Source: Streptomyces sp. Q6
GTDB taxonomy: Bacteria > Actinomycetota > Actinomycetes > Streptomycetales > Streptomycetaceae
DNA length: 64,000 bases
Assembly (NCBI RefSeq): GCF_036967205.1
Contig: NZ_CP146022.1
Location: 3,596,001 to 3,660,000 of the forward strand
Direction: 5' to 3'
Shown here: positions 34,859-59,163 of the stretch, piece after piece
Position numbering within the stretch: position 1 is the stretch's first letter
Layout of the letters: the number at the start of each line of letters is the position of its first letter
The notes under the pieces: generated by a model
Database searches by the model: none
Told to the model about the DNA's origin: nothing
The model's input: the letters and a program-made list of their open reading frames with translations, nothing else
Made by a program: the position numbers and the translations under genes

Positions 34859-34951
34859 CGCTCCTCGCTCCTCTCAGTCGGCACTGACTGCTGGCGGTTG
34901 CACGGGCCCGCGACTCCCGCCCCTCCTGCAAACGGTCGAAGATCGCTTACA

Positions 34952-38227: not shown

Positions 38228-38337
38228 GGCGGGTTCTCCCCAGACTCGAAAACGGTGGTCTCGAAAACGGTGTGCCGTCCGGCACGGACATGGGCAGTCT
38301 ATTCAGCGGCACCGATCTCCCAGCGAAGGGCCAGCCC

Positions 38338-38856
38338 ATGACCGACGTCGCCGATGTGTTCGTGCCGCCCTCCGTGCGGCTGCGGGTCCCCACCCATGAG
38401 GACGCGTTCGCCTGGCACCGGGTGTTCGACGACCCGGACGTCATGGAGTTCCACGGCGGCGCCTCGGCGGAGCTGTCGGTGTACGAGGAACTGACCGCGC
38501 GCCAGCGGCGGCACGACGCCGAGCACGGGTTCTGCCTGTGGACGATGACGAACGACGCGGGCGAGGTCATCGGCTTCACCGGCGCGCAGCCGTGGCCGGG
38601 CACCTGGGGCCCGGTCGGCGAGATCGAGATCGGCTGGCGGCTGGGCCGCGCGCACTGGGGTCAGGGGTACGCGACGGCCGCCGCGCACGCCACGCTGGAG
38701 CGGGTACGGGCGGCGGGCGTCGGCAGCGTCGTCGCGATGGTCGACGCGCGCAACGCGCGGTCGATCGCGGTGACCCGCCGCCTCGGCATGGATCTGGTGG
38801 AGACGTTCGTGACGCCGACCGGCAAGCAGGGCCACTGCTTCCGGTTGGTGCTGTAA
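38338..38856 (+). CDS. GNAT-family N-acetyltransferase
   Basis: A 172-residue acetyltransferase of the RimJ-like group. EIEIGWRLGRAHWGQGYATAA holds the acetyl-CoA-binding loop, and VDARNARSIAVTRRLGMDLV is the usual C-terminal block. The acceptor cannot be told from sequence. ATG at 38338 is chosen because it directly precedes the conserved part; in-frame ATGs at 38290 and 38272 are possible. Divergent from the menaquinone reductase gene. Confidence 0.87.
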   Translation: MTDVADVFVPPSVRLRVPTHEDAFAWHRVFDDPDVMEFHGGASAELSVYEELTARQRRHDAEHGFCLWTMTNDAGEVIGFTGAQPWPGTWGPVGEIEIGWRLGRAHWGQGYATAAAHATLERVRAAGVGSVVAMVDARNARSIAVTRRLGMDLVETFVTPTGKQGHCFRLVL

Positions 38857-38918: not shown

Positions 38919-39260
38919 GTGCCGAAGACGCCCAAGACACCCGAGACGCCGGACGTGCGCGTTCCGAAACTGGTCGGCCTGATGGCGGTCGACGCACGCC
39001 AGGCCGCCCATGAGCACGGGGTGCTCATCGCCGCGGCCGACCGGCGCGACTTCCACCGGGTCACCGTGGACTACGTGGTGCGCCAGTACCCGGACCCGGG
39101 CGTCGAGGTGCCCAGGGACGCCGTGATCACCGTGTGGTTCGACCTCGGTGAGGGCGAGGGCGGTGGGGGCGTGCGCGTGCCCCGCGAGCCGGGCCCGCGG
39201 GGCGGTGGGTTGCGCCGTGAACTGGCGGAGCCCGTCGAGCCGTTCAGTCCGTGTCCGTGA
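38919..39260 (+). CDS. Single PASTA-domain protein
   Basis: A 113-residue protein with one PASTA domain at about 14-75 (VPKLVGLMAVDARQAAHEHG, then VRQYPDPGVEVPRDAVITVWF). There is no signal peptide or membrane segment, so it is probably cytoplasmic, unlike typical PASTA kinases and penicillin-binding proteins. Start is the GTG at 38919, 8 bp after GGGGG; a GTG at 38910 is an alternative. Its 3' end overlaps the convergent zinc-ribbon gene by 17 bp. Confidence 0.75.
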   Translation: MPKTPKTPETPDVRVPKLVGLMAVDARQAAHEHGVLIAAADRRDFHRVTVDYVVRQYPDPGVEVPRDAVITVWFDLGEGEGGGGVRVPREPGPRGGGLRRELAEPVEPFSPCP

Positions 39261-41735
39261 GCCGCCAGGTGTCGAGCGCGACCCGGTGCATCTGCTGGGA
39301 CCGGCCCCACACGTCCTCCCGCGCCGACAGCAGGATGGCGTACTCGGTGCCGTCCGCGGCGATGTAGGCCTGGTCGATGCCGTGGATGGTCTGCCCGGCC
39401 TCGTTCTCGTACGTGTACTCCCACAGCGCCCCCGTGCGGCCCTGGAAGGTGTTCCGCTCCAGGCGCAGCCGCTGGTAGCCGCTCTTCTTCTTGTCGGCCT
39501 GAAGGTGCTTCTCCATGGCGAGGAAGTTGTCGTACGAGGTGTAGTCCGCGGCCGGGATGACGCCGACGAGGAAGTGCTCCTGGCCGGTGCTGCCCGCGTA
39601 CGTGATCTGGCTGTCGTTCTCGATGCCCTGCCGGTCCCACTGCTCGGGCACGGCGAACGAGAAGCCCTTCTCGTCGAAGACCTGGTGGTAGCCGGCCGGG
39701 ATGTCCGGCATGTCGGTGGGCTCTGCGGACGCGGAGGCGGACGCCGGGTCGGACGCGGCGTCCGGGCTCGCGCTCGGGGTGGGCGTCGGTGACGTCCCGG
39801 CGGACGGCTTCGTGGTCTGCGCGGCGACCGGCCGGCCGCCCTCGCCGTCGTCCTTGCCGCCGTCCCCGTCGTCCTGGAGCAGGAGCACACCGGCCGCGGC
39901 GCCGCCGCCGATCACGAAGGCGCCCGCGAGGGTGCCGACCCAGATACCGACGCGCCGCTTCGACCGCGGCGGGGGCCCTGCGGGCGGCGTGAGGTGGACG
40001 GTGTGCGGATCCACGGTGTGGGGATCGACGGGGTGCGGATCGTACGGTGACGGCGGCTGATGCGGGTGCTGCGGTTGCTGCGGTTGCTGTTCGTGAGGCT
40101 GCTGGAACCGGTCGGCGGGCGGCGGCTGGTACGGGGTGAACCGGTCGCCGGGCGGCGGCAGTTGGCCGGAGTACGCGGCCGCCTGGCCGGGTGCCTGCCC
40201 CGGGACCTGACCCGGCGTCGGCGGCATCGGCGGCATCCCGGTCCCCGCACCCGTGCCTGCCCCCGCCACCTGCGCCAGGTACGGCCCGACGAACGCCGCG
40301 CCCCCGATCCACAGCAGCCCGAAGAGCAGCGCGTCCGGGACGCTCAGGCCCACATCGACCTGCCCCGAGCCGCTGCTCGAACTGCCGAAGAAGTCGAAGC
40401 CGCCCGTGTAGTCGACGCCCAGACCGCCCACCCCGGCGAGCAGCAGGAACAGGCCGAAGAAGAGCCCCGCGGACAGGAGTTGCTCGCGCCGGTCGAGCGA
40501 GCGGCGGGCGATGAGCACGCCGGCGGTCAGCGCGCAGACGAGGCCGAGGGCGAGCGCGTAGGCGACGGCGCCCGAGCCGAGTTCGTCGCCGAGCCGGGAC
40601 AGGCCGAACGACTCGCGCTCGTACCCGCCCCCGCCGAACGAGGACGTGCCGCGCGCCTCCATCTGGAGCGGGGCGCCCCAGCTCAGGCCGAGCACGCCGA
40701 GCGCGAGGTTGGGCAGCAGCATCAGGAACGCGCCGAGCGCCGCGGCGGCCGAGCCGTCGAACTCGGAGGAGTCCGCGACGTCGGCGGCGCTGTTGCCGCC
40801 GTCCTCGCCGAAGAGCGCGAGCCCGAGGTAGCCGAGGACCGCCGCGATGAGCAGCACCCAGCCCATGGCGCGCACGGCCGTACCGAAGGCCCGTACCGTC
40901 ATCCGCACCCCGGGCCTGGCCTCGGCCACCCGGTACCGCAGGTCGTCCGCGTGCAGCACTCCCCCGGCCACGGCGAGGGTGAGCAGCAGCGTCCACAGGG
41001 CGGTGAGGAACGGCGTGGTGGACAGGTCGACGCCCTCGATCCCGGGCTGTGCGATCAGGGCGAGCAGCAGCGTCGCACCGGTCACCAGGAGGGCGACGCG
41101 CACGGCCGCTTCGAGCCCGGCGGTGGCGCCGTCGGGCGCGCCGGGCACGACCCGCGCGTACAGCCGGCCGCGCAGCATCCGTACGCCGACGACGAGCAGC
41201 ACGATCCACAGCACCGTCACGAGGAGCGGGACGAGCGAGATCGACGCGGTGCCGGACGTCCCCGCCTCGTATCCGCCGTCGTACAGGGAGGAGTCGGAGG
41301 ACGACGCGGCGCCCGACACCTCCAGGCCGCCACCGACCCCCTGGAGCAGGGCGGCGAGCGCGATGCGCATGCGGTCCGTGAAGCCGACGACGACATCGTC
41401 GGAGTCCTGGCCGTAGGAGGGGACGGCGAACGCGAAGGCGCTCACGAGCAGGAACCCGACCGGCCACAGCGCGGCCTGCGCGGCCCCGGCCCAGTCGCCG
41501 CGCAGCGCCCGTCCGAAGAACTGCCCGACGGCCGAGGGCTGAGCGGGGCCCGGGCGTAGGCGGGTGGGGGCGGCGGAGGCGGCGGCTGCATCGCCGCGGC
41601 GGCGGGTGCGACGGCAGGGACGGGTGGGGTGGCCGGGGCGGGCGGGGCCGCAGGGGAGCGTTCCTGCCCGCATCTCATGCAGAAGAGGGCCTCATCAGGA
41701 GCCTCGGCTCCACAGTGCGGGCAGTTCGACGCCAT
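39244..41735 (-). pseudogene. Zinc-ribbon multi-span membrane protein, frameshifted
   Basis: Two frames make one protein. Frame 1 (41735 to about 41550) encodes MASNCPHCGAEAPDEALFCM RCG, a CxxC...CxxC zinc ribbon, then a poly-Pro stretch. Frame 2 (about 41550 to 39244) has no start of its own and encodes about 770 residues: roughly ten membrane segments, an Ala/Pro/Gln/His-rich linker, another span near the AFVIGGGAAAGVLLL stretch, and a soluble C-terminal domain from GYHQVFDEKGFSFAVP. Adding one base in the G/C runs at 41545-41554 restores an 830-residue frame. Either a sequencing error or a true pseudogene. Function unknown. Confidence 0.8.
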
Positions 41736-41767
41736 CAGGGGGCTCCGTGATGCTCCGGGGACGGTCG

Positions 41768-41794
41768 GGTGACCCGCCGTCACCGGCGGTCACC
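41768..41794 (-). terminator. Terminator after the menaquinone methyltransferase gene
   Basis: GGTGACCCGCCG (41768-41779) pairs with CGGCGGTCACC (41784-41794) with one bulge and a 4-nt loop, about 65 nt beyond the stop on the minus strand and just upstream of the zinc-ribbon gene. Confidence 0.6.
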
Positions 41795-41860
41795 ACGTAC
41801 TCAACGGACACATCTTTCCCGCAGCCCGGTTCCCGTCAACTGCAATATGGGGCAAGGGAC

Positions 41861-42550
41861 TTACTTGACGCCCCGGTGCAGCGCGACGATGCCGCCGGTC
41901 AGGTCGCGCCAGGCCACCTTCCGCCAGCCCGCGCCCTGGAGGCGGGTGGCGAGCTCCGGCTGTGTGGGCCAGGCGCGGATCGACTCGGCGAGGTAGACGT
42001 ACGCGTCGGGGTTCGAGGAGACGGCGCGCGCGACCGGCGGCAGCGCCCGCATCAGGTACTCGGTGTAGACGGTGCGGAACGGCGCCCACGTCGGGTGGCT
42101 GAACTCGCAGATGACGACGCGGCCGCCCGGCTTGGTGACGCGGTACAGCTCACGCAGCGCCTGGTCGGTGTCCTGGATGTTGCGCAGCCCGAAGGAGATG
42201 GTGACGGCGTCGAACGAGTCGTCGCGGAACGGCAGCTTCGTGCCGTCGCCCGCCGTGAACGGCATCCAGGGGTGGCGCTTCTTGCCGACGCGCAGCATGC
42301 CGAGGGAGAAGTCGCAGGGCACGACGTACGCGCCGGCCCGCACGAACGGCTGCGAGGACGTGGCGGTCCCGGCGGCGAGGTCGAGCACCTTCTGCGCGGG
42401 CCGGGCGTCGACCGCCTTGGCGACCTCCTTGCGCCACAGCCGTGCCTGCCCGAGGGAGAGCACGTCGTTGGTGAGGTCGTACTTCTCCGCGACGTCGTCG
42501 AACATCGAGGCGACTTCGTGCGGCTGCTTGTCCAGGGAGGCTCGGGTCAC
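41861..42550 (-). CDS. menG: Demethylmenaquinone methyltransferase
   Basis: A 229-residue SAM-dependent C-methyltransferase of the UbiE/MenG family, which adds the ring methyl in the last step of menaquinone synthesis. [27 protein letters not shown] is recognised from its ends [13 protein letters not shown] and [20 protein letters not shown] is the SAM site; [25 protein letters not shown] is the diagnostic UbiE block (SFGLRNI, RVTKPGG). Near mqn genes, the polyprenyl synthase and nuo. Confidence 0.93.
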
Positions 42551-42580
42551 CCGCCCATTGTGGCAGTGCCCCTCCCCGCG

Positions 42581-43941
42581 TCAGCGTCGGAGGGCCTCCG
42601 CGGGTTCGACGCGGGCGGCGCGCCACGCCGGGTAGAGGCCCGCGAGGACACCGGTGACCAGGCCGATCAGCGGGGCGGAGGCCACCGTCGCCGGGTGCAC
42701 GACCGGCGTCCAGCCGCGGGCGAGCGCCACGCCGAGCACGGTCAGGGTGCCCAGGCTCGTGCCGACCAGGCCGCCGAGGGTGCCCAGCGCCCCCGACTCG
42801 GCGAGGAACTGCGCGGTGATGTGCCGCCCGCGGGCGCCGAGGGCACGCCGCAGGCCGATCTCGCCGGTGCGTTCCAGGACGGCGACGAGCGTGGTGTTGG
42901 CGATCCCGACGGCGCCGATGACCAGGCAGATCCCGGCGAGCAGCAGGAAGAGCTGGTTGAGGTCGGAGGTGATGTTCGAGCGCAGGGTGCGCGGGTCGGG
43001 CGGCGGTGTGGCCTTGAGGTACTCGGGGTGGTCGGGGCGCAGGGCGGTCGGCGCCTCGTGGGCCACCTGCCGGGCGGCGCCGAGCCGGGTGGAGACCAGC
43101 ATCTGGGCCTCCTGCGGGTCGGGCGGGCCCCAGATCCGTTCGGCGACGGTACGCGGGACGACGACGGAGAGCAGCAGGTCGGCCTTGCGGTCGACGTCCG
43201 CGACGACGCCGACGACGGTGAACGGCTCGTCGCCGATGAACACCGCCGGGTGCGTCTCCAGGGTCGTGATGCCGAGCCGGGCCGCGACGCCCTCGCCGAT
43301 CACCGCGACCGGCTCCCCGGTGGCGGCGAGGTAGTCGTCGTACACCTTGCCCTGGGCGAGGGTGGGGCGGGCCGCGCGCAGCACCCCGGGGGAGGCCGCG
43401 ACGACGGAGATCTCCTGACCGCCGTCCGTCCCGCCGGAGCCGCTGTCGGCGACGGGCGCGGAGCGGACGGTGACGCCGTCGTCGGGGCGTAGGGTCCAGA
43501 ACACCCCGGCCGCCTCGACCCCGTTGACCTTCCGCATCCGGCGGTCGGCGTCGGCCGGGAAGACGGGGCCGGCGAGCGCGGCGTCGTCGGCACCGGCCTC
43601 CTCGACGCTCACCTCGGTGGCCGTGAGCGCGTTGAACCGGGAGTCGATCTGCGAGGACGTGGTCGCGGTCAGGCCGAGGATCGCGACGAACGTGCCGACG
43701 CCGAGGACCGTGCCGAGCGCGGTCAGGGCCGAGCGGGCGGGTCGCTGGAGGACACCGGCCCCGGCCTCGGAGAGCAGGTCCCTGGGGCGCAGCACGGAGC
43801 GCTCCACGGCGGCGGAGGCCCTCGGCCGTCGCCCGCGCCGCAGCGGGTTCCTCGGACCGTGCGGCCCGCGGTGGGCGCGCCCCACGAGAGGGCTCCTGTG
43901 GCGGTGGATCAGGCGGTTCATGAGGCTGTTCATACGGCGGT

Positions 43942-43945
<4 letters not shown>
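42581..43945 (-). CDS. MacB/FtsX-type ABC transporter permease
   Basis: A 454-residue permease. An Arg/His-rich N-terminus (about 1-50) precedes the first span (ALTALGTVLGVGTFVAILGL), then a MacB-like extracytoplasmic domain of about 230 residues, then three spans with the FtsX block (IGAVGIANTTLVAVLERTGEIGLRRALGA, cited by its ends). It lacks its own ATPase domain; that is the upstream gene, which it overlaps by 4 bp (ATGA at 43945). Part of a tripartite-like operon. Confidence 0.92.
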
Positions 43946-44687
<742 letters not shown>

Positions 44688-44691
<4 letters not shown>

Positions 44692-46259
44692 CGGACGTCC
44701 TCCGCCCCGTCGCCTTCGCCGTCCGCCGCTCCCCCGCCGCTCCCCTTGGCGTTCGCGCCGTCGGACGTGACGCCGGTGACGACCTTGTCGCCCTTCTTCA
44801 GGGTCGCGCCGCCGGTCGGGGTGACGGCGACGAAGCCGTCGCCGACCGTGCCGGGTTCGACCTCCACCTGCCGCCGGGCACCGCCGGAGGTGAGGACGGT
44901 GACGGTGGTGCGGCCGTCGGCGCCCGCCGTGATCGCGGTGATGGGCACGACCAGCGCCTTGCCGTCGGTCGTCGCGGCCTGCACGGCGAGGCGTACGTCC
45001 TGCCCGGCGAGTTTGGCGTCGAGGGGCCGGTCGGGAGTCACCTCGAGGAGGTAACCGCTCTCCCCCGTCCGGGAGTTGCCGCCGTCCTGGTTGTCGCCCT
45101 GGCCGCCCGTCGCGGTGCCGGAACCGCCGGTGTCCTGCCCCTGCGCGGAGAGCGTGTCGGCGACGGACGTGACCTTCGCACGGGCGCTGATTCCGGTGAG
45201 CTCCGAGTGGATCTCCACCTTCTGCCCCTTGCGCACGAGCCCTTTCTGGTGCTCCTGGAGGTACGCCTGGACGATCAGGCGGCCGGCGGAGACCGTCATC
45301 ACGGCCCCGGTGACCTGCGCGCCGACCTTGCCCTGCACCGCGTCGACGCGGGCCGGGAAGCCCTGAAGGAACACGACCTCGCCGGCGGGCAGTTTGGGGC
45401 CCGCGGCCGCCTCCGCCTTGGCGAGTTCGGTGCGGGCGGTCGCCAGGTCCTCCTTGGCGCGCTCCAGTTGACGCCCGGAGTCGCCGCCGCTCGCCTCCTC
45501 GCCCGCCGCGGAGTCGCCACCGCCCCGGCCGCCGGCCCGCGCGTCCTCGACGGCCCGCTGCGCGCCGGTCACCGCGTCCCTGGCCGACTTGAGGCCCGCG
45601 CCGTCGTCGTCCAGGGCGGGCAGCGGGTCGTAGCCGAGGGAGGCATAGAACGCGGTGAGCGCGGTCTTCGTCCCGGCCCCGAACGTGCCGAGCGCGTCGC
45701 CGCCCGTCCCGTGCCCGAGGCCGCGCAGCGCTTCCTGGAGCTGCCGTACGTCGCCGCCGGTCGCGCCGGGCTTGAGGTCGCGGTAGACCGGGACCCGGCC
45801 GGGGAGCGCGATCACGGGCCGCCCCGACACTTCGAGGAGCACCTGTCCCGCCCGGACGGTGTCGCCCACACCGACGCCCACCTTGGTGACCACCGGGGCG
45901 CCCGATCCCTCGCCGCCGGAGATCTGCGGGGCGACCTGCACCGACTGGCCGGCCGTGACCTGCCCGCGGGTGATCACCGTGGAGGCGAGGACCCGGTACT
46001 CCACGTCGGCGGTCAGCACGCTGGGGGCGGGCGGCCGCGCGTCGGCGGCCGCCTGCGACGGCGACTTGATCAGCGTGGCCGCGCCGACCCCGCCGCCGGC
46101 CAGCACCACGGCGCCCACGACGAGGCCCGTCACCCAGCGCCGCCGCCGGGACAGCCGGCCGCCGGGCGCCGCGCCACCGTCGGCGCCGGACCCGCTCCCG
46201 CTCTCGGCACCCCCGGCGCTCTCGTCGGCGATGCCCGCGTCGCCCTCGCCGTCGCCCAT
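44688..46259 (-). CDS. Membrane-fusion (HlyD/MacA-like) adaptor with peptidoglycan-binding domain
   Basis: A 523-residue protein (547 if the in-frame GTG at 46331 is used; that start is 3 bp after the upstream stop). A cytoplasmic acidic N-terminus is followed by a membrane anchor at about 47-67. Then a beta-barrel/lipoyl-like region, a PG_binding_1 domain near 140-185 (GGDVRQLQEALRGLGHG), an Ala/Glu-rich helical segment and a C-terminal barrel. This layout is typical of actinobacterial adaptors that link an exporter to the cell wall. Operon with ATPase, permease and lipoprotein. Confidence 0.88.
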
Positions 46260-46334
46260 CTCCACCACCACGCCTCGCAGTTCCTTCGTTCGGTCGGCCG
46301 GAACCGGACGCCGGCCGGTCCGGGTGCGCACGGT

Positions 46335-46892
46335 TCAGCCGCCGATCTTGCCGCCGCCGTTGGACCCGGACTTGCCGCCGCACTTCTGGAGCGCCGCGAC
46401 CAGCTTCGGGTCTCCCTTGAGGGACTTGGCGAGGTCCTCGGTCACCGGGATCTCGCCCGTCTTCGGGTCGGGGTCCGGATAGTCGGGGAAGCCCTCGCCG
46501 CGTACACACGCGCTCGCCTTGCGCGCCTTGGCGAGCCGCTGGGCGGAGACCGCTCCGTCGCCGCCGCCCCCGGCCGTCGCGGGCAGCTTGTCCACGCACT
46601 TCTGCTCCGCCCCCTTCAGCGTCGCGGCGCTCACATGGTCCTTGTCGACCTGCCGTACGCCCTCGGACGTCGTCGTGAGCTTCACCCCGGCTGCCGCGAG
46701 GCAGTCCAAATAGGCGGCCTGGTCCGTGTCCTGGGTCTCGGCAGGGCTCGGGGCGTCCTGGTCGTCGGCGGCGACCGTCGACTTCCCGCCGGCCCCGGCC
46801 TCGTCGTCACCGCCCCCGGCGCAGCCGGCGCTCAGCAGGGCGGCGACGAAGAGGGCCGAAGCCAGCCTGGCGGTACGGGTCATGGCACGCAT
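46335..46892 (-). CDS. Lipoprotein, first gene of the MacAB-like operon
   Basis: A 185-residue exported protein with lipobox LLSAGC at about residues 17-22; the Cys would be lipidated. The mature part contains four other Cys residues (YLDCLAA, EQKCVDK, ASACVRGEGFPDYPDPDP, LQKCGGK), a pattern shared with several actinobacterial extracellular proteins. ATG at 46892 is preceded by AGGAGC. The adaptor gene begins within 3-75 bp, so it belongs to the same transcript. Function unknown; perhaps a substrate-handling or sensing partner of the exporter. Confidence 0.85.
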   Translation of the reverse strand: MRAMTRTARLASALFVAALLSAGCAGGGDDEAGAGGKSTVAADDQDAPSPAETQDTDQAAYLDCLAAAGVKLTTTSEGVRQVDKDHVSAATLKGAEQKCVDKLPATAGGGGDGAVSAQRLAKARKASACVRGEGFPDYPDPDPKTGEIPVTEDLAKSLKGDPKLVAALQKCGGKSGSNGGGKIGG

Positions 46893-47077
46893 GGGGGCTC
46901 CTGGGGCAGGCCGGGCCGAGGACAGGCCGGCGGGGGAACGAAGAGGTCGGCGCGGGGCGCGCTCTCGGCCGGCACCTCGGCCCGTGAGTCCGTACACCCC
47001 GCCAACTCGCCTGCGGAGCAGGGACGTTCACCGCACAGGCGGCCGTTCTCCGCACGCCGAAACTAGCCCCGCCACCC

Positions 47078-47119
47078 GGCGCCGTCTACTGCCCCGAAGG
47101 CCAGTAGACGCCCGGCGCC
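47078..47119. promoter_or_regulatory. Large palindrome upstream of a secreted-protein gene
   Basis: GGCGCC plus GTCTACTG (47078-47091) pair with CAGTAGAC (47102-47109) and, after a 4-nt bulge, GGCGCC (47114-47119). Situated in the 297-bp divergent gap, 70 bp before the ATG at 47190. As DNA it could be an operator; as RNA it would be a stable leader hairpin. Confidence 0.5.
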
Positions 47120-47189
47120 CGCTCGGCTTGGCTTCGAACGAACGCGTTCACAGGTACCTCAGGAAGCACAAGAGAACAGGGAATCCAGC

Positions 47190-47621
47190 ATGTTGAAGTC
47201 CACATTCGGCCGCCGCGCCGCCACCCTCGCGCTCGCCGTGACCGCTCTGACCGGTGCCGGTCTGGCGACCGCGGGCAGCGCCTTCGCGGTGTACGCGCCG
47301 AAGGACGGCTACCTCGACGGTGGCGAGTTCGGCCTGTACTACAACTCCGACCAGGGCGGCTGCGTCTTCGACCTGTACTCCTCGGACACGAACTTCAGCG
47401 GGGACTACTTCAAGGCGTTCGTCGGCTCCTGCAACGGCCAGGGCCAGTCGACGAACAACAACACCGCCTCGTACCACAACAACGACACCTACCGCTGGTA
47501 CGTGTACACCGGCAGCGACGCCACGGGTTCCGAGGGCAACCTGCCGGCCGGCTACGTCGGCAACGCGTCCAGCACCTTCAAGAACACGATCACCTCGGCG
47601 TACCCCTTCGACGCCAACTGA
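47190..47621 (+). CDS. Small secreted protein, possible peptidase-inhibitor-like fold
   Basis: A 143-residue protein with an N-terminal signal peptide (basic FGRRAATLALAV, cleavage near GSAFA-V at about 31). The mature chain has only two Cys (GGCVFDLY, GSCNGQ), likely one disulfide, and many Asn, Tyr and Gly residues; it resembles, without clear motifs, the inhibitor I36-type small secreted proteins of Streptomyces. Stands alone with its own palindrome upstream and a strong terminator downstream. Function unknown. Confidence 0.8.
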   Translation: MLKSTFGRRAATLALAVTALTGAGLATAGSAFAVYAPKDGYLDGGEFGLYYNSDQGGCVFDLYSSDTNFSGDYFKAFVGSCNGQGQSTNNNTASYHNNDTYRWYVYTGSDATGSEGNLPAGYVGNASSTFKNTITSAYPFDAN

Positions 47622-47676
47622 CCGGTCCCGTAAGGCCGGCCGTCTGAACCACCCGGGGTGACACCCGACGCACCAG

Positions 47677-47713
47677 CCGCTGTCCTGCCCGTTGGAGCCG
47701 GGCAGGACAGCGG
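47677..47713 (+). terminator. Hairpin terminator after the small secreted protein
   Basis: 15-bp perfect stem CCGCTGTCCTGCCCG (47677-47691) / CGGGCAGGACAGCGG (47699-47713), 7-nt loop, about 55 nt after the stop. Confidence 0.85.
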
Positions 47714-47788
47714 TTCGCGCACACTACCGCCCGGCCGGGGCCACCCCGATACCGCTGTTCTCCCGTTCCCCCGATACAAGGACGCCCC

Positions 47789-48769
47789 ATGCCCGCACCC
47801 TCCGGACGCCTCCTCCTCGCCCGCCTCACGGCCGTCGCCGCCGTCCTGGCGCTGTCCGGCTGCGCCGCCTCGCAGAGCGACTCGGGGGACGACGGCAAGG
47901 GCGAGCCGCCGCTCGGGAAGGTGCGCGAGCTCACCGAGACCGCGGGGCTCGTCTTCCCGCTCGACGCGTACGAGCGCTCGGCCACCGAGATCCGCCAGCT
48001 CGACGCCGCGCAGAACGTCCTCGTCACGAAGTGCATGAAGCGCTACGGCTTCGACTACGCCGCCCCGGCACCCGCGGCCACCGCCAAGTCCCAGCCAAAC
48101 GCGAAGATTTTCGGCCTCGTTGACGCCGGTGACGCGGCGCGCTACGGCTACGCCGAGCCCCCGCGCAGCGGCGGGACACCGCAGAAGCGGCCCGCCTCGC
48201 AGTTGGGCGCGACGGGCGAGCAGGTGCTGACGGGACCGGACGGGAAGAAGGGCGACGGCAGCGCCCGGGGCGGCAAGGTCCCGATGAGCCTGGCCGATTC
48301 CCGGGCGAAGAAGAGCGGTTTCGTGGTGAACGGCAAGGACGTTCCCGTCGGGGGTTGCTCGCGGGAAGCGTTCCTCGATCTGTACGCCCCCAAGGCGGAC
48401 GCTGTCGACGTGATGTACGTCTTCAACCTCCGGGCGGAGGCCGAGTCCCGCGCGCTCAGCGACTCCCGCGTGAAGAAGGCCACCAAGGCCTGGTCCGGCT
48501 GCATGGCGAAGGCCGGCTACACCACCGCCGACCCGGCGTCGGTCACCCGGGACCTCGGCATCGCGGACGACGCGCGGAACACGCCCAAGGCGATCGCGGC
48601 AGCAAAGGCAGACGTGCGCTGCAAGGCCGACGTGAATTATTCGGGAATTCGTTTCGCGGTGCAGAGTGCCTATCAGAAACGCCTTCTCGACAAGAATGGC
48701 GAGACGCTGGAACTCCTCAGGAAGCAGTCGCAGGACCGACTGCGCAGGGCGGCCGAACTGACCGCCTGA
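47789..48769 (+). CDS. Lipoprotein, function unknown
   Basis: A 326-residue exported protein with lipobox ALSGC near residue 25-29 after a hydrophobic leader. The mature part has paired Cys segments (TKCMKRYGFDY, GGCSREAFLD, WSGCMAKAGY, DVRCKAD), again suggesting disulfides. ATG at 47789 follows AAGGA. The last ~60 codons (from about 48620) use noticeably more A/T at third positions than the rest. Same strand as the LuxR-like gene 110 bp downstream. Confidence 0.85.
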   Translation: MPAPSGRLLLARLTAVAAVLALSGCAASQSDSGDDGKGEPPLGKVRELTETAGLVFPLDAYERSATEIRQLDAAQNVLVTKCMKRYGFDYAAPAPAATAKSQPNAKIFGLVDAGDAARYGYAEPPRSGGTPQKRPASQLGATGEQVLTGPDGKKGDGSARGGKVPMSLADSRAKKSGFVVNGKDVPVGGCSREAFLDLYAPKADAVDVMYVFNLRAEAESRALSDSRVKKATKAWSGCMAKAGYTTADPASVTRDLGIADDARNTPKAIAAAKADVRCKADVNYSGIRFAVQSAYQKRLLDKNGETLELLRKQSQDRLRRAAELTA

Positions 48770-48828
48770 GGACTGGCAAAACTATCCGGACCATCCCCTT
48801 CCGGTGACCCGCAGAGGCGGTCGGCGGC

Positions 48829-48850
48829 GGAATCCCCCGTGCTAGATTCC
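48829..48850 (+). promoter_or_regulatory. Candidate promoter/operator of the LuxR-like regulator
   Basis: GGAATC (48829-48834) and GATTCC (48845-48850) form an inverted repeat around a 10-bp centre; TAGATT (48843-48848) inside it is a plausible -10. No clear -35 hexamer was seen. Confidence 0.35.
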
Positions 48851-48880
48851 CGTCGCCAAACCAAGACCCGGGGGGGGATC

Positions 48881-49273
48881 TTGTCACTCAGCTGCATTAT
48901 CTGTGCTGGTCATGGCAGCGCCGATGGGCCGGATGCACTATCCGACGCGAGCCCTGCCACAGCTCTCATCGTCGCTCCCGACTTAACGCTGACACCGACG
49001 GAAGAGCGCGTTCTCGCGACGCTGTACTGCGCTCCGTCGAACATGGAGATCGCCGCGCTTCTGCATATGGCGCCGCGGACGGTGAAATTCCATATCACCA
49101 ATCTACGGGCCAAGATCGGCGGCCTGAGCAGGCTCGGCCTGTGCCTTCTGTCCGCCATGAACCGGCAGGGCATCCCGTCGGTCTGCCTCTCCTGCGCAGA
49201 CGCCTTCGCAAAGCCGCGAGGTCTCGACGGTGACGTCTCCGCTGTTCCCGTGTCGTGCGACAGCCCCGGATGA
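48881..49273 (+). CDS. LuxR/GerE-type regulator with two CxxC motifs and a TTA codon
   Basis: A 130-residue protein starting at TTG 48881, just after GGGGGGGA at 48871-48878 (a GTG at 48839 in frame is the alternative). A LuxR-type helix-turn-helix spans about 36-82 (LTPTEERVLATLYCAPSNME, then PRTVKFHITNLRAKIG). CIIC at residues 5-8 and CLSC at 102-105 flank it and could bind metal or act as a redox switch. Codon 35 (48983-48985) is TTA, the codon needing bldA tRNA, so expression may be tied to development. No receiver domain. Base composition is lower in GC than neighbours. Confidence 0.8.
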   Translation: MSLSCIICAGHGSADGPDALSDASPATALIVAPDLTLTPTEERVLATLYCAPSNMEIAALLHMAPRTVKFHITNLRAKIGGLSRLGLCLLSAMNRQGIPSVCLSCADAFAKPRGLDGDVSAVPVSCDSPG

Positions 49274-49284
49274 GCCCGTCGCGG

Positions 49285-49321
49285 GCCGCCGGAAATTCGA
49301 CTTCAACCTTTCCGGGGCGGC
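49285..49321 (+). terminator. Hairpin after the LuxR-like gene
   Basis: GCCGCCGGAAA (49285-49295) pairs with TTTCCGGGGCGGC (49309-49321) with a 2-nt bulge; loop of 13 nt; 12 nt after the stop. Confidence 0.55.
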
Positions 49322-49367
49322 GGCGCTCTGAAGAGTGTGGAAGCCGAACACGGGAGAGCGCGCAGCG

Positions 49368-49967
49368 ATGAGCGAGAAGGGGGGCGGGATGCCGGCAGGG
49401 ACGGCCACCCACGCCGACACCGCGAGCCCGGCCGACGGCTCGGGCCGCGGGGGCACCTCGGCCGACCGGGGCGCCGCGTCCTTCGAGGAGTACGCCAGAG
49501 TCGGCCAGCGCCGCCTCTACCGGACGGCCTATCTGCTGTGCGGCAGCGCCGAGGGCGCGCAGGACCTGGCCCAGACGACGCTCGCCAAACTGTTCCAGCA
49601 CTGGCGGAAGGCGAGCAGGGCCGACAACATCGACGCGTACGCCAAGACCGTCCTGGTCCGCACGTACGTCGCCGAACGCCGTCGCACCCTGCGCGACCTG
49701 CTGGCCCACACGCGCAGCGCCGCGCGCACCGAGACCCAGCCGGCCCACCACGCCGATCTGCGGGTCACGCTCCTCGCGCTCCTCGACGAACTGCCGCCCC
49801 GCGCACGGGCGATGGTGGTGCTGCGCTACTGGGAGGACCTGAGCGTGGAGTCCGTCGCGTCGCTGCTGCGGTGCAGCGAGTCCACGGTCAAGAGCCAGTG
49901 CTCACGCTCCCTGACCCGCCTGCGCGCCCGCCTGGGCGACGCCCACGAGTACTCCAGCGGGAGTTGA
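49368..49967 (+). CDS. SigE-family ECF RNA polymerase sigma factor
   Basis: A 199-residue sigma-70 factor of the SigE family. Region 2 begins ASFEEYARVGQRRLYRTAYL near residue 38; region 4 runs from RVTLLALLDELPPRARAMVVLRYWEDLSVE to STVKSQCSRSLTRLR (blocks LPPRARAMVVLRYWED and CSESTVKSQ). A low-complexity N-terminus of ~35 residues precedes it. ATG at 49368 is chosen; ATG at 49389 with AAGGGGGG upstream is also plausible. The next gene starts 8 bp later and encodes a single-span protein that may be its partner. Confidence 0.9.
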   Translation: MSEKGGGMPAGTATHADTASPADGSGRGGTSADRGAASFEEYARVGQRRLYRTAYLLCGSAEGAQDLAQTTLAKLFQHWRKASRADNIDAYAKTVLVRTYVAERRRTLRDLLAHTRSAARTETQPAHHADLRVTLLALLDELPPRARAMVVLRYWEDLSVESVASLLRCSESTVKSQCSRSLTRLRARLGDAHEYSSGS

Positions 49968-49975
49968 CACCGGTC

Positions 49976-50770
49976 GTGAACACGAAATCTCAGCACGAGG
50001 AGTACGAGGACCAGGACGCGGCGCTGTTCAGGTCCGCCCTGTCCCGGGCGGCCGAGGACCTGCCGCCGCTGCCCGACCTGGTGCCGCGGGCTCAGCAGCT
50101 GGGCCGCGGGCGCCGGGCCAGGGCGCGGGCCGTGAAGACGGGCGCGGCGTTCGCGGCGGTCACCGCCGTGGCCGTCGGCGCCGCCTGGCTGCCCTCGCTG
50201 TCCGGCTCCCCGTCGCACGGCGCCGCGGACCCGGCGGGTGCGCCGTCCGCCGCGTCGTCGGCCCCGGCGTCCGGGACGGACGAGGACGTGCGGCTCACCG
50301 CGTACCGGATGAAGGCGGCGGGGGCCCTCGACGCGGCGCTGCCGGCCGCGTTGGGCCGGGTCTCCCCGGCGGGCGCGGACGACGTGCGGTCGTTCGTGGC
50401 GCGCTCCGGCGAGCGGTCCTACCCGGTCGCGCTGACCGTGCGGCGGGCGCCGGGCGCGGCCCTGCGCGCGTGCGAGGACGCCCCCGAGAAGGGCCTGACG
50501 TGCCGTGCCACCCGGCTCACCGACGGGCGGACGGCGCACGCCTACACGCTGCCCGCGGCGGCGGGCGGCGGCAGCGAGATCTCGCTCCAGTTCCGCGAGG
50601 GCGACAGCGAGGTGTCCCTGACGGTGTCGCCCGACCCGCACGGCTCGGCGCCCCTGCCGGTGACCGTGGAGCAGTTGACCGAGGCGGCGAGCGGCGCCGC
50701 GTTCCAGAAGCTGGTACGGGACGCCGACCGGAATCCGGTGCTCACCGAAGGGGCGGACCGTGCCGGTTGA
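49976..50770 (+). CDS. Single-span membrane protein downstream of the sigma factor
   Basis: A 264-residue protein starting at GTG 49976. A polar cytoplasmic N-terminus (about 1-50, LFRSALSRAAEDLPPLPDLV) is followed by one membrane span (53-74) and an extracytoplasmic domain with one Cys pair (LRACEDAPEKGLTCRA). Topology and position suit an anti-sigma factor or stress sensor for the SigE-type factor, but there is no zinc-binding HxxxCxxC anti-sigma motif. Overlaps the following gene by 11 bp. Confidence 0.82.
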   Translation: MNTKSQHEEYEDQDAALFRSALSRAAEDLPPLPDLVPRAQQLGRGRRARARAVKTGAAFAAVTAVAVGAAWLPSLSGSPSHGAADPAGAPSAASSAPASGTDEDVRLTAYRMKAAGALDAALPAALGRVSPAGADDVRSFVARSGERSYPVALTVRRAPGAALRACEDAPEKGLTCRATRLTDGRTAHAYTLPAAAGGGSEISLQFREGDSEVSLTVSPDPHGSAPLPVTVEQLTEAASGAAFQKLVRDADRNPVLTEGADRAG

Positions 50771-51721
50771 CCGCCCCGCACCCCCGAGCGAGGACACGCT
50801 CCTCCTGAGCAGGCCGGCGGGGAACGGCTCCAACGCGCCCCGCCGGCCGCCCTCTTCGCCGGACCGCCGCCCGCGGGAGCGCCGAGGACCCGCGTCGCGC
50901 CGCGGCCGTGGCGTGCTCGTCGCCCTCGTCCTCGCGGCCGTCGCGATGGCCGCGGTCGCCGCGTTCCGCTGGGCGCCGCTCCCGCACGGGACACTGACCG
51001 CGGCGGAGCCAACGACGGCCCGTTCGGCACCGGACGCCACAGCGTCGCCGCATCCGGCGGAGGCGTCCCCGTCAACGGCGAGCCCCTCGAAGACGGCGTC
51101 ACCAGAAGCGACCCACGCGGCGTCACCGGCCAAGCCCTCCGCGAAGGCGTCCACGGCCGCCGTGCCCGGCACCGGCCGTGGCACCTTCACCGTCGCCCGC
51201 GCGGCGGCGTCCACCGCGTCCGGCGGCAGCCGCTACCGCGTCGAGGTGGAGGACGGCAGCGGCGTGGACCCGACCGCGCCGCGGCCGAGATCGCCGGGAT
51301 CCTCGCGGACCCGCGCGGCTGGGCGCACGGCGGCGCCCACACGTTCCACCAGGTCGCCGACGGTTCCGCGGGCCTGGTGATCCGGATCGCGACCCCGGCC
51401 ACCACGGACCGGCTGTGCGCGGCCTACGGCCTGAACACGCACGGCGAGGTCAATTGCAGCGGCGGCTCCGCCGTGATGGTGAACCTGCGGCGCTGGCAGC
51501 TCGGCTCCCCGCGGTTCCCCGGCCCGCTGCACGAGTACCGCGCCCTGATCGTCAACCACGAGGTCGGCCACTGGCTCGGCCACGGCCACGAGACGTGCCC
51601 GGGTCCCGGACGCCCCGCGCCCGCGATGATGCAGCAGATCAAGGGCCTGCTGGGCTGTGTCGCCAACGCCTGGCCGTACGACGCGGCCGGCCGCTATCTG
51701 AGCGGGCCCACCGTCCCCTGA
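50760..51721 (+). pseudogene. DUF3152-like protein with metzincin-type HExxH motif, frameshifted
   Basis: Frame 1 (GTG 50760 to about 51270) encodes a basic N-terminus, a membrane span (VLVALVLAAVAMAAVAAF) and an Ala/Ser/Pro/Thr-rich linker leading to YRVEVEDGSGVD. Frame 2 (about 51270 to 51721) continues the domain: DRAAAEIAGILADPRGWAHG through NHEVGHWLGHGHETC to the end. One base missing at the CCC 51269-51271 separates them; adding it gives 320 residues. HEVGHWLGHGH fits HExxHxxGxxH, the metzincin zinc-protease signature. Likely a membrane-anchored extracellular metalloprotease or relic. Confidence 0.82.
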
Positions 51722-51732
51722 CGCCCGGCGCC

Positions 51733-52329
51733 TCAGCGCGCCCGGTACACCAGCCGTCCGCCGATCACGGTCGCCACGCACGTCGCGGCCCCGCGCCGCA
51801 CCAGGTCCGCCCGGTCCGCCACGTCGAACACCGCGAACCGCGCGGGTCCGCCCACGGTGAGCGCGGGCAGCAGGACCATCGGCCGCGGGGAGAGCGAGAC
51901 CGGCCCGGGGAGCCGGTCGGGGCGGCCGCCGAACACGAGCCCGGAGCGCCGCGCCACCTCCAGGACCGCCTTGGCCCGCAGCTCCCCGGCGAGGGCCACC
52001 GTGCCGTGCGCGAACAGCCGCTGCACGCCGCGCCGGGCGCTGGCGCCGAGCCGCGAGGGGTCGGCGCGGAAGATCTGCCGCGCCCGCTCACCGCCGATCG
52101 GGGTGGTCCCGTACGTCTCGGACTCGCGCGGATCGGGGTGGTACGTGTGCTCCAGGATCTCCGGGCCGTACGGGTTGAGCAGTCCGGGCGTGAGGATGCC
52201 GGGCCAGCGCCGCACCCGGGCGGACGGGTGGGCGGCGGCCAGGTCCTCGTACGGGCCGAGCGCCGTGACGTACTCGCCGTCGACGAGGACGGCCGACCCG
52301 TCCGCGTCGGTGGCGTGAAGTGTCAACAC
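51733..52329 (-). CDS. Imidazolonepropionase/amidohydrolase-like domain protein
   Basis: A 198-residue protein starting at GTG 52329, 14 bp after mqnC. It resembles the composite beta-sandwich edges of amidohydrolases (ILTPGLLNPYGPEILEHTYHP, AVFDVADRADLVRRGAATCV, VIGGRLVYRAR) but lacks the central TIM-barrel and metal-binding HxH motif, so it is unlikely to be catalytic by the usual mechanism. Constant linkage to mqnC would suggest a role with the futalosine pathway; this is inference. Confidence 0.75.
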   Translation of the reverse strand: MLTLHATDADGSAVLVDGEYVTALGPYEDLAAAHPSARVRRWPGILTPGLLNPYGPEILEHTYHPDPRESETYGTTPIGGERARQIFRADPSRLGASARRGVQRLFAHGTVALAGELRAKAVLEVARRSGLVFGGRPDRLPGPVSLSPRPMVLLPALTVGGPARFAVFDVADRADLVRRGAATCVATVIGGRLVYRAR

Positions 52330-52343
52330 GTGTGCGCGGGGCC

Positions 52344-53552
52344 TCAGTTCGTGGAGACGAGCTTGAGCTCGGGGTGGGCCGTGCCGCCCTCGATCGCGGT
52401 GGACGAGATGTGGGAGACGACGCGGTCGTCGACCGGGTCGTTCGCCGGGTCGTCGTGCACGACGAGGTGCTCGTACGTCGTGGCGCGCTGGGCGGGCACC
52501 CGGCCGGCCTTCCTGATCAGGTCGATGATCTCCATGCGGTTGGAGCGGTGCTTGGCACCGGCCGAGGAGACGACGTTCTCCTCCAGCATGATCGAGCCGA
52601 GGTCGTCGGCGCCGTAGTGCAGCGACAGCTGGCCGACCTCCTTGCCGGTGGTCAGCCACGAGCCCTGGATGTGCTGGACGTTGTCCAGGAAGATCCGGGC
52701 GATCGCGATCATCCGCAGGTACTCGAAGAGCGTCGCCTGCGTACGGCCCTTGAGGTGGTTGTTCTCCGGCTGGTACGTGTACGGGATGAAGGCGCGGAAG
52801 CCGCCCGTCCGGTCCTGTACGTCACGGATCATGCGCAGGTGCTCGATGCGCTCGGCGTTGGTCTCGCCGGTGCCCATCAGCATGGTGGAGGTCGACTCGA
52901 CGCCCAGGTTGTGGGCGGTCTCCATGATCTCCAGCCAGCGCTCGCCGGACTCCTTCAGCGGGGCGATGGCCTTGCGCGGCCGCTCGGGCAGCAGCTCGGC
53001 GCCGGCGCCGGCGAAGGAGTCGAGCCCGGCGCTGTGGATGCGCTGGATGGCCTCTTCCACCGACACCTTGGAGATCCGGGCCATGTGCTCGACCTCGCTC
53101 GCCCCCAGGCTGTGGATGACGAGCTGCGGGAACTCCTTCTTGATGGCGGAGAAGTGCTCCTCGTAGTACTCGACGCCGTAGTCCGGGTGGTGCCCGCCCT
53201 GGAACATGATCTGCGTGCCACCGAGCTCGATCGTCTCCGCGCAGCGGCGCAGGATGTCGTCGAGGTCGCGCGACCAGCCCTTCTTCGTGTCCTTGGGGGC
53301 CGCGTAGAAGGCACAGAACTTGCACGCCGTGACGCACACGTTCGTGTAGTTGATGTTCCGCTCGATGATGTACGTGGCGATGTGCTCGATGCCCGCGTAC
53401 TTGCGGCGGCGGATGGCGTCGGCGGCGGCGCCGAGGGCGTGCAGCGGGGCGTCCCGGTAGAGCTCGACAGCCTCCTCAGGGGTGATGCGCCCACCGGCGG
53501 CGGCGCGGTCGAGTACGGCGATCAGTGCCTGCTGCGCGGCCTTCTCGGTCAC
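52344..53552 (-). CDS. mqnC: Cyclic dehypoxanthinyl futalosine synthase (radical SAM)
   Basis: A 402-residue radical SAM enzyme of the futalosine menaquinone pathway; it cyclises dehypoxanthinyl futalosine. The cluster motif CVTACKFC gives Cys73, Cys77 and Cys80. NINYTNVCVTACKFCAFY and MFQGGHHPDYGVEYYEEHF are strongly conserved MqnC blocks, as is FIPYTYQPENN. Start is GTG with GAAAGGGG upstream. mqnA lies 3 kb away on the same strand; mqnB and mqnD are outside the window. Confidence 0.95.
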   Translation of the reverse strand: MTEKAAQQALIAVLDRAAAGGRITPEEAVELYRDAPLHALGAAADAIRRRKYAGIEHIATYIIERNINYTNVCVTACKFCAFYAAPKDTKKGWSRDLDDILRRCAETIELGGTQIMFQGGHHPDYGVEYYEEHFSAIKKEFPQLVIHSLGASEVEHMARISKVSVEEAIQRIHSAGLDSFAGAGAELLPERPRKAIAPLKESGERWLEIMETAHNLGVESTSTMLMGTGETNAERIEHLRMIRDVQDRTGGFRAFIPYTYQPENNHLKGRTQATLFEYLRMIAIARIFLDNVQHIQGSWLTTGKEVGQLSLHYGADDLGSIMLEENVVSSAGAKHRSNRMEIIDLIRKAGRVPAQRATTYEHLVVHDDPANDPVDDRVVSHISSTAIEGGTAHPELKLVSTN

Positions 53553-53609
53553 CGGGCGTGCCCCTTTCGGAGTGTTTCTCAGGGTGTGGAGCTGAAATCT
53601 CAGCGTACG

Positions 53610-54274
53610 TCAGGCGGCCAGGGCACCCAGCAGAACCCCCGTGTAGGCCCCGAGGATCATGAAAGGCCCGAACGGGATCTCGCTCTTCCTGCCCGCGCGC
53701 CGGGCGACGACCAGGACCAGCGCGTACAGGCCGTTGAACAGCACGCCCGCGAACGCCCCGATGAACAGCACCCCCCACCCGTACCAGCCGAGCGCCGCCC
53801 CGAGCCCGAGCGCCAGCTTCACGTCCCCGAACCCCATGCCCTGCGGATGGATGAGGAGCAGGACCAGGTACCCGCCGCCCAGGCCGAGGGTGCCGAGCAC
53901 GGCCCCGCGCCACGATCCGCCGGGCTCGGGAGCAGCGCGGCCCCGCCGAGCGCGAGCAGCGCGAGCCCGGCCAGCGGCAGCGTCAGCACGTCCGGCAGCC
54001 GGTGCACGGCGAAGTCGACGGTGGCCAGCAGCACCCCGACCGGCACGAGCAGCAGCCAGGCCGCCAGCTCCGGACGGGTACCGGTGGCGGCGGCGAGCAG
54101 CGCGCAGGCGCCCGCGCCGACCACGGCGAGCTTCCCGGACCCCGCCCCGGCCCCGACCCAGCCGCGGGCCGTGCGCCACGGCTCCCCCGCCGGTACGGAG
54201 AGGCGGTGGGCGGGGCGGGCCAGGAGCAGTCCGGTGACCGCGCCCCAGAGGGCGGCGAGGAGGATCAGCGGCAC
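53610..54274 (-). pseudogene. A24-family prepilin peptidase, frameshifted
   Basis: Frame 1 (GTG 54274 to about 53930) encodes VPLILLAALWGAVTGLLLA and further spans to DFAVHRLPDVLTLPLAGLAL, which holds the first catalytic Asp. Frame 2 (to 53610) continues from EPGGSWRGAVLGTLGLGGGY through GMGFGDVKLALGLGAAL, which contains the second catalytic Asp in GFGD. The CCC run at 53928-53930 lacks one base; adding it gives 221 residues. It processes type IV pilin-like or Tad pilin leaders; no pilin genes are in the window. Start is 2 bp after the kinase stop. Confidence 0.82.
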
Positions 54275-54276
54275 GG

Positions 54277-55906
54277 TTACTGCTCCACCCGCTTCAGGTC
54301 GGCGGTGGGATTGCCCGCGTTCGGGTACCGCGAGGTGTACGTCAGCGAGGCGCCGTCGCGGGTCAGGCGCACGGTGTGGGCGCCCTTGGCGCAGTTGCCG
54401 CCGTTGTCCGGCGCTCCCTCGCCCGCGGCCACGAGTTCCCTGCCGGTGACGGACGTCAGGGTCAGCACGTCGACGCACTCCAGGCCCAGGAGGTCGGTCG
54501 AGGTCACGGTGCCCACCTTCTCCCCCACGGCGGCGTCCTCCAGCTCGACGCGGTAGGTGTCGGTCGAGGTGCCCAGGTCCGTGGTGGCCCGGCCCTCCCA
54601 CGTGCCGACGTAGAACGTCGGCACTCCCGCCGCGTCCGACGGGGCCGAGGACGCCGTGGGACGCGCCCCGGTGTCGCTGCCCGCGTCGTTGCTCCCCCCG
54701 TCACCGGGCAGCATGTTCACGACGAGGATGCCGCCCACCGTCACCGCCGCCAGCGCGCCGGCCACGGCCAGGGCGACCGAGCAACTCACCCTGCGCCCGC
54801 GGCCGTTCTCGGTCGCCGGGGTCGACGTCGCCGATACGGACACGGACAGCCGGCCCGGCCTGGCGTCCTCCGCGGGGACCTCGGTGCGCGGCGCGGGAGG
54901 GCGGACGCGTACGACGGGTCGGGCGGCCCGAAGGCGCCCGGGGCGGCGAACTCCCGTTCACCGAGGGGCTGCTGAAGCCGACCGGCCCCGAGGCGGGGGC
55001 CTCGGCGGGGGTGCCCTCCAGGTCGAGGAGCTGTACGGCGCTGCGCGAGACCTGCTCCACCAGCGCCCCGGGCAGCCAGCCCGCCGCGACGAGCCGGGCC
55101 GCGCCCTCGGGAGCGAGCCGCCGGGCGACCTCTTCGGGGGTGGGCCGCGCGGCCGCGTCCTTGGCCAGGCAGGCCGCCGCGACCTCACGCAACTCGCCGG
55201 TCAGCGCGCCCAGTTCGGGCTCCTCGTGGACGACCTTGTAGAGCAGCGCGGCGGAGGAGTCGCCGGGGAAGGGGGAGTCGCCGGTCGCCGCGTACACGAG
55301 GACGGCGCCCAGCGAGAAGACGTCGGCGGCGCCGGTGACACCCCTGCCGAGGATCTGCTCGGGCGACATGTAGCCGGGCGAGCCGATGGAGACGCCGGTG
55401 GAGGTGAGGGAGGCGGTGCCGTCCGTGGCCCGCGCGATGCCGAAGTCGATGAGGCGCGGCCCGTCGACCGTGAGCAGCACGTTCGACGGCTTCACGTCAC
55501 GGTGGACCAGGCCGAGCCCGTGCACCGCGGCCAGCGCCTCCGCGAGGCCCGCGCCGAGGACCCGTACGGAGTGCTCGGGAAGCCCGTGCCCCGACCCCGC
55601 CGCCTGGGCGAGGGAGGGCCCGGCGACGAATCCGGTCGCCACCCACGGCACCCGCGCCTCGGGGTCCGCGTCGAGCACCGGCGCCGTCCACGCCCCGCCG
55701 ACCCGCCGCGCCGCGTCCACCTCGCGCCGGAAGCGCTCCCGGAACTCGTCGTCGAGCGCGAAGTGCGGATGCACCACCTTCACGGCGACGGTCCGCCCGC
55801 CGGCGCTGCGGCCCAGGTACACGCGGCCCATTCCGCCGTGCCCGAGCCGCCCGAGCAGCCGGTAGGGACCCACCGTCGTCGGCTCGTCGGCCTGTAGCGG
55901 TTGCAT
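54277..55906 (-). pseudogene. Membrane Ser/Thr protein kinase, two frameshifts
   Basis: From ATG 55906 an intact Hanks-type kinase domain is read: LGHGGMG loop at 21-27, Lys43, HRDVKPSN with Asp137, DFG at 154-156. After about residue 315 the frame is lost at 54953-54955 and again at 54895-54901, each lacking one base in a G/C run. Restoring both joins a Pro-rich linker, a span (SVALAVAGALAAVTVGGIL) and an extracellular domain (FYVGTWEGRATTDLG to LKRVEQ) into 543 residues. The kinase would phosphorylate cytoplasmic Ser/Thr in response to an outside signal. As read, only the kinase domain would be made. Confidence 0.85.
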
Positions 55907-56095
55907 GCTGGTGAACCTCCCCCGGTCTCCCCCGTACGGCACGCGCGCCCCAGCAGAGTAGCCCTGCGGCACGAATACCGTCCGTTCACCTCGATTCCAC
56001 GCAGGCCGCACGGAAATCGGCAATACCGTTCACCGGAATTCCACCGGCGGACCGCGCCGAATTCCGCACGGGCCCCACAAAGGAACACGACGCAC

Positions 56096-58371: not shown

Positions 58372-59163
58372 ATGCGTTCGCCGTACCGAACACTCAGCCC
58401 GCTCCACCGAACAGTCGGTTCGCTTCGCCGGACGGCCGGTTCGTCCCGCCGCGCCTCCGGCCCGTCCCGCCGAGCGCGCGGTCCGCGCCCGCGCACCGCC
58501 GCCCTGGACCCGCGGCTGGTGCGGGACGTCGCGCTCGTCTGCCTCGCCGACGCCGTCGTCGGCGTCTCGTTCGGGGCCGTCGCCGTCGCCGGTGGGCTGC
58601 CCGTGTGGCTGCCGGTGCTGATGTCCCTGGTGGTGTTCGCGGGGTCGGCGCAGTTCAGCGCGGTGGGGATCCTGGTGGCCGGGGGCGGGCCCGTCGCGGC
58701 CGCCGCCACCGGGCTGCTGCTCAACACCCGTACCGCCGCCTTCAGCCTCGCCGTCGCCGACGCACTCGGGCGATCGTGGCCGGCCCGGCTGGTCGGGGCG
58801 CATCTGGTGACGGACGAGACGGCCGCGTTCGTGCTGGCCCGGACCGATCCGGAGCAGCGCAGGACCGCCTTCTGGGTGGCGGGCGTCGGCCTCTTCGCCG
58901 CCTGGAACGTGAGCGTGCTCGGCGGCGCGCTCGCCGGAGCCGCCCTCGGCGACACCGATCGGTTCGGGCTCGACGCGGCCTTCCCCGCGGTGCTGCTCGC
59001 GCTGGTGCTGCCCGCGCTGCGGGAGAGCCGCGGGGTGCGGCGGGCCGCCGCGGCCGGGGGCGCCGTCGCGGTCGCCGCCACCCCGTTCCTGCCGTCCGGG
59101 GCGCCCGTGCTGCTCGCGCTCGCCGGGCTGTCGCTGCTGTCCTCCCGGCGGTGGTCCCGGTGA
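58372..59163 (+). CDS. azlC: AzlC-family branched-chain amino-acid exporter, large subunit
   Basis: A 263-residue membrane protein. After a basic N-terminus with repeated Arg/Ser/Gly units (about 1-43), spans begin at LVRDVALVCLADAVVGVSFG; VFAGSAQFSAVGIL is the AzlC signature. AzlC with AzlD exports branched-chain amino acids or analogues. The ATG at 58372 is the most plausible start but initiation further downstream would remove the unusual Arg-rich leader. Stop overlaps azlD by 4 bp. Confidence 0.88.
   Translation: MRSPYRTLSPLHRTVGSLRRTAGSSRRASGPSRRARGPRPRTAALDPRLVRDVALVCLADAVVGVSFGAVAVAGGLPVWLPVLMSLVVFAGSAQFSAVGILVAGGGPVAAAATGLLLNTRTAAFSLAVADALGRSWPARLVGAHLVTDETAAFVLARTDPEQRRTAFWVAGVGLFAAWNVSVLGGALAGAALGDTDRFGLDAAFPAVLLALVLPALRESRGVRRAAAAGGAVAVAATPFLPSGAPVLLALAGLSLLSSRRWSR

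Follow-up and report, generated by a model that had tools for sequence, protein, structure and literature searches.

The stretch examined here (the window) comprises 64,000 nucleotides from Streptomyces sp. Q6, positions 3596001-3660000 of the 8.57-Mb contig of a genome of 8.95 Mb that is assembled in 2 contigs and is 99.99% complete. Among named relatives, those that match it best belong to Streptomyces. An earlier note on this DNA had claimed that five single-base deletions break four genes in the window. For each gene the 5' and the 3' piece were extracted in their own frames and proteins of relatives were aligned to the DNA with tolerance of frame changes, and all five breaks were seen in these frameshift-tolerant protein-to-DNA alignments. 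The genes for a zinc-ribbon membrane protein, a DUF3152 protein, a prepilin peptidase and a Ser/Thr kinase run out of frame at five places (A, B, C, D1 and D2), at each of which the sequence is one base short. The pieces and breaks are listed in window coordinates (GC, G+C content; E, expectation value).

41442..41783, minus strand: 5' part of the zinc-ribbon membrane protein (open frame); Zn_Ribbon_1, E 1.3e-07
41522..41573, most often 41555, minus strand: break A, zinc-ribbon protein, one base short by alignment to relatives; GC 0.845 over 200 bp
39244..41550, minus strand: 3' part of the zinc-ribbon membrane protein; about 39-46% identity to relatives
50760..51270, plus strand: 5' part of the DUF3152 protein
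51267..51273, plus strand: break B, DUF3152 protein, one base short, placed at 51267 in 6/6 relatives of the first alignment set; GC 0.795
51272..51721, plus strand: 3' part of the DUF3152 protein; Pfam DUF3152, E 4.9e-28; 63-83% identity to relatives
53930..54286, minus strand: 5' part of the prepilin peptidase, without a convincing Pfam match of its own
53923..53932, minus strand: break C, prepilin peptidase, one base short, placed by two relatives (L044 and G009); GC 0.775
53610..53930, minus strand: 3' part of the prepilin peptidase; Peptidase_A24, E 1e-05, 26.3 bits against a cut-off of 26.5
54956..56023, minus strand: kinase domain part of the Ser/Thr kinase (open frame, true start inside); Pkinase, E 1.5e-34
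54934..54956, minus strand: break D1, Ser/Thr kinase, one base short by alignment to relatives; GC 0.80
54860..54917, minus strand: break D2, Ser/Thr kinase, one base short by alignment to relatives; GC 0.795
54277..54843, minus strand: C-terminal, probably extracellular, part of the Ser/Thr kinase; 33-44% identity to relatives, no Pfam match

The kinase linker has poor conservation, so that its two breaks are placed differently from relative to relative; the alignment of one relative (L022) fits a single two-base step in their place. The 3' piece of the prepilin peptidase is matched in 60 of 61 genomes of the genus, its own included, with best matches at 51-83% identity. The 386-kb second contig carries another prepilin-peptidase-like gene (G000:C2:347602-347916), with 43% identity to this piece.

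In most relatives the two pieces of each gene lie in one frame without a stop. Among loci having both pieces this was the case for the zinc-ribbon protein at 12 of 15 (79 loci given), for the DUF3152 protein at 38 of 42 (88 given), for the prepilin peptidase at 30 of 30 (30 given) and for the Ser/Thr kinase at 34 of 35 (98 given). Some DUF3152 and kinase loci may have been counted twice, the two locus collections overlapping; the named loci alone gave 28/32 and 26/27. The exceptions are two zinc-ribbon loci with their pieces in different frames (L026, L051), one zinc-ribbon and one kinase locus with the same frame but a stop in the span (L046 and L052), and four DUF3152 loci (L031, L036, L038, L045) in which the two pieces match places about 900 bp apart, at about 11.7-13.1 kb, and which probably carry tandem copies. 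The earlier note had named identical shifts in related genomes as a sign of programmed recoding or old pseudogenes; the shifts are not conserved among the relatives. This lack of conservation argues against programmed frameshifting and against an old shared pseudogene.

Two core genes, infB and dnaX, which were picked for their expected GC-rich linkers and are not a random sample, are each also one base short. In infB, encoding initiation factor 2 (IF-2), the break falls at about contig position 6240888 (L266, position about 469; GC 0.83), within the GC-rich amino-terminal part, and was placed identically from two relatives. Some bacteria may tolerate a break close to the IF-2 amino terminus. 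In dnaX the base is missing from the linker (GC 0.855) and the C-terminal domain continues in another frame. The placement of this break rests on relative G074, whose dnaX is open throughout, since the dnaX of the single-contig genome G009 carries a minus-one shift of its own elsewhere in the linker (L268, reverse strand, about 3243); further small shifts occur upstream of dnaX in the alignments to both relatives. A living strain lacking both infB and dnaX is unlikely. It could be supposed that the ribosomes shift at the break sites, by programmed or tolerated frameshifting. The G/C runs near most sites would suit such recoding, and dnaX is known to be recoded in other bacteria. A programmed site should be conserved among relatives, however, whereas the relatives encode the four window proteins in one frame and the position of the dnaX shift is not shared, so that we give this explanation almost no weight.

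The frequency of such breaks in the assembly was assessed ab initio, homology clusters in the relatives being too noisy to count. The detector, a simple trained codon-phase model, records an abrupt change of coding frame on one strand at which neither frame is closed by a stop near the junction. It was applied to 860 kb of this genome (the contiguous 460-kb tract that includes the window and 20 separate 20-kb samples) and to 400 kb of each of four relatives. This genome gave 36 abrupt switches, 23 in the 460-kb tract and 13 in the 20-kb samples, where 7 of the 18 chromosomal samples contained events and neither of the 2 taken from the second contig did. The relatives gave 5, 6, 2 and 2 per 400 kb, a rate of 15 in 1600 kb against 36 in 860 kb (p 2e-7). 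The rule of abruptness, which allows no non-coding gap, was fixed after the ungated results had been viewed; without it, 39 strict switches were found in 460 kb here against 18, 19, 8 and 15 per 400 kb in the relatives. Within the tract the spread was uneven: the interval 78-120 kb contained 12 events and the interval 120-337 kb contained 2. Of the breaks in the window the detector recovered only B and C (2/5); the kinase pair appeared as one gapped switch and A was missed. The densest group of all, five abrupt minus-one switches within 1.7 kb (G000:C1:3384405-3386072, L089), lies in what is apparently one gene, with an FHA-like and an FtsK-like part on a reading of its translation. A repetitive Gly/Ser/Thr-rich coding tract (G000:C1:3378066-3378932, L088) confuses frame detection.

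Of the 36 switches, 34 are of the minus-one kind (p 2e-8 against equal odds). This is not a property of the detector, which has no preference for deletions over insertions: simulated deletions were recovered in 227 of 425 cases and insertions in 241 of 437, every recovered change was typed correctly, and the sensitivity to simulated deletions was 491/911. At 34 events per 860 kb, the whole genome of 8.95 Mb would have about 350 detectable breaks. If the broken genes were true pseudogenes, reflecting recent frameshift loss of several envelope and signalling functions, this is also the number that decay would have to account for. The breaks are present in the sequence as given, and occasional switches, mostly minus-one, occur in relatives too (2 to 6 per 400 kb), as such loss would allow. 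Decay should, however, leave mixed disabling lesions, and the frame switches are almost only single-base deletions; infB and dnaX are broken alike, and decay should not follow GC at a scale of 300 bp with a sharp step, as described below. We therefore regard true gene loss as very improbable.

Position depends above all on regional GC. DNA with a GC of at least 0.78 over 200 bp makes up 69.9 kb of the 860 kb and contains 29 of the 34 minus-one events, while in the four relatives 151.6 kb of such DNA contained 4 events. The five sites in the window range from the 89.8th to the 99.9th percentile of the 460-kb tract in GC over 200 bp. When GC around the events was compared with that at random positions, the area under the curve was best for windows of 200-700 bp (0.942-0.950, with the peak of 0.950 at 300 bp); it fell to 0.709 with 10-bp windows and to 0.79 with 10-kb windows. 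A bias of the detector does not explain this dependence up to GC 0.82, since the range 0.78-0.82 held 57 of 491 detected simulated deletions as against 26 of the 36 observed events. The earlier note had placed all five breaks in runs of three or more G or C. Runs of at least 3 are indeed near 34 of the 36 sites, but they are also within 12 bases of 73.7% of GC-matched random positions in the tract, so that they discriminate break sites poorly. Runs of at least 4 are enriched, being present within 12 bases of 21 of the 36 sites as against 26.4% of GC-matched positions (p 5e-5). The number of events per 1000 such longer runs rises through successive GC bins as 0, 0, 0.39, 1.66, 27.2 and 28.8, the last value being uncertain because simulated detection at GC of at least 0.82 was 0/7. 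Because the rate per long run itself steps up about 16-fold above 78% GC, run content cannot explain the step. Regional GC is the main determinant of the positions, and long G/C runs have a smaller, secondary effect.

These results bear on two further explanations. The first is base-calling error in extreme-GC DNA without any failure of polishing, for which the enrichment of runs of at least 4 speaks. A base caller is thought to read 10-20 bases at a time, whereas the effect of GC is strongest over 200-700 bp; the 16-fold rise in rate per long run at 78% GC also speaks against it. We consider this unlikely as the whole account; it overlaps with the explanation preferred below, and as it too would make the breaks artefacts the verdict is unchanged by it. 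The second is a real deletion-biased mutator that removes single bases from DNA above about 78% GC, for example through replication slippage on GC-rich templates combined with defective mismatch correction. This would mean that hundreds of genes are truly frameshifted, and we hold it to be extremely improbable.

The explanation that we prefer, with a probability of about 0.95 on the evidence of the sequence, is that the five breaks would be residual consensus errors of a long-read assembly, with or without a drop-out of polishing. Under-calling of bases is supported by the single missing base at each site, the one-frame genes of relatives, the excess of switches over relatives, the dependence on GC and the involvement of two core genes. 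Residual errors should be predominantly single-base deletions, enriched at homopolymers and spread over the assembly including its core genes, and this is the pattern found. The observation of broken frames is then correct, but it is almost certainly not a biological feature and there is nothing biological to explain. Assembly in few contigs, here 8.95 Mb in 2, is typical of long reads. A long-read consensus, presumably the platform used, would under-call single bases everywhere, mostly at or near short G/C runs, and short-read polishing would have repaired most of these. Where GC averaged across a few hundred bp is above about 78%, coverage by short reads is typically lost; such tracts may lack usable short reads and so would keep their raw errors. 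This drop-out of polishing, which the GC step and the 300-bp scale support indirectly, is taken on its own to be likely.

Comparable errors have been described. Three PacBio-only Streptomyces assemblies and their Illumina-corrected counterparts disagreed at 70, 295 and 335 sites, by far the most of which were single-base insertions in homopolymers (PMC6923854). The present case resembles those assemblies in genus, in the single bases missing from G/C homopolymers and in the judgement by protein comparison, and the roughly 350 scaled breaks are of the same order as the tens to hundreds per genome in that study (PMC6923854). Unlike there, the errors here were read from the assembly sequence alone, and what remains sits in tracts above about 78% GC at a scale of 300 bp. 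False pseudogenisation by frameshifts in long-read assemblies of small genomes, found by comparison with a reference set, is likewise the subject of Kastor, a tool described as assessing and correcting such errors (PMC12007338), whereas none were corrected here.

Several observations weigh against this interpretation. The deletion bias is not unique to this genome, 12 of the relatives' 15 switches also being minus-one; these may be milder errors of the same kind or real deletions. Not all of the 36 ab initio events were checked against relatives and some may be false; two (contig 3378373 and 3378685) lie inside the repetitive tract mentioned above. The spectrum of run lengths shows no clear deficit of long G/C runs and resembles that of G108. 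Break C (0.775) and the next minus-one break, site E, which lies just past the window (contig 3661291-3661297; GC 0.765) in a gene resembling 3-oxoacyl-acyl carrier protein reductases on a reading of its translation, fall slightly under the 0.78 step. Finally, the five known breaks at 41-56 kb are a modest excess over the 2.1 expected after correction for sensitivity (P 0.06), or over 1.3 uncorrected (P 0.01).

The region from 41 to 56 kb seems clustered because of its higher share of DNA above 78% GC. The share above 0.78 is 20.7% there, while 0-41 kb has 3.6% and 56-64 kb has 14.5%, and at the genome's rate 1.3 detectable events would be expected in it, where the same detector found 2. Of the earlier reading as local homopolymer under-calling, the preference for under-calling over decay stands; the errors are not local, as the chromosomal samples show, and regional GC outweighs G/C runs. 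The alternative that it had offered, an unusual cluster of gene loss, almost certainly gives way to bases missed in sequencing in the most GC-rich stretches. A false signal of clustered gene loss is thereby removed, and any frameshift in tracts of this assembly above about 78% GC becomes suspect, core genes included. With the GC threshold and the 300-bp scale, other high-GC genomes can be tested simply for this defect.

The genes before 41 kb had been described as intact, and this holds as far as tested, with 86.5% of 0-41 kb covered by proteins of relatives. The same statement for genes after 56 kb is weakly supported, as 24.8% of 56-64 kb is covered and site E follows just beyond. Homology clusters in the 460-kb tract numbered 19 and were sorted by inspection, 8 being accepted as in-gene and 11 dropped as upstream extensions or weak matches; three of those dropped (34860, 57208 and 38252) were examined. 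The candidates at 34860 and 57208 lie upstream of a NuoA-like and a cold-shock-like gene respectively (names from reading the translations). For the candidate at 38218-38365, the frame that is open in the relatives crosses the adjacent gene in antisense orientation. Complex I genes (Pfam Oxidored_q2, Oxidored_q3, Fer4 and NADHdh) meet at 24330 and 25769, where gapped switches had been recorded, and the AzlC/AzlD frame change at 59138 reflects two overlapping genes.

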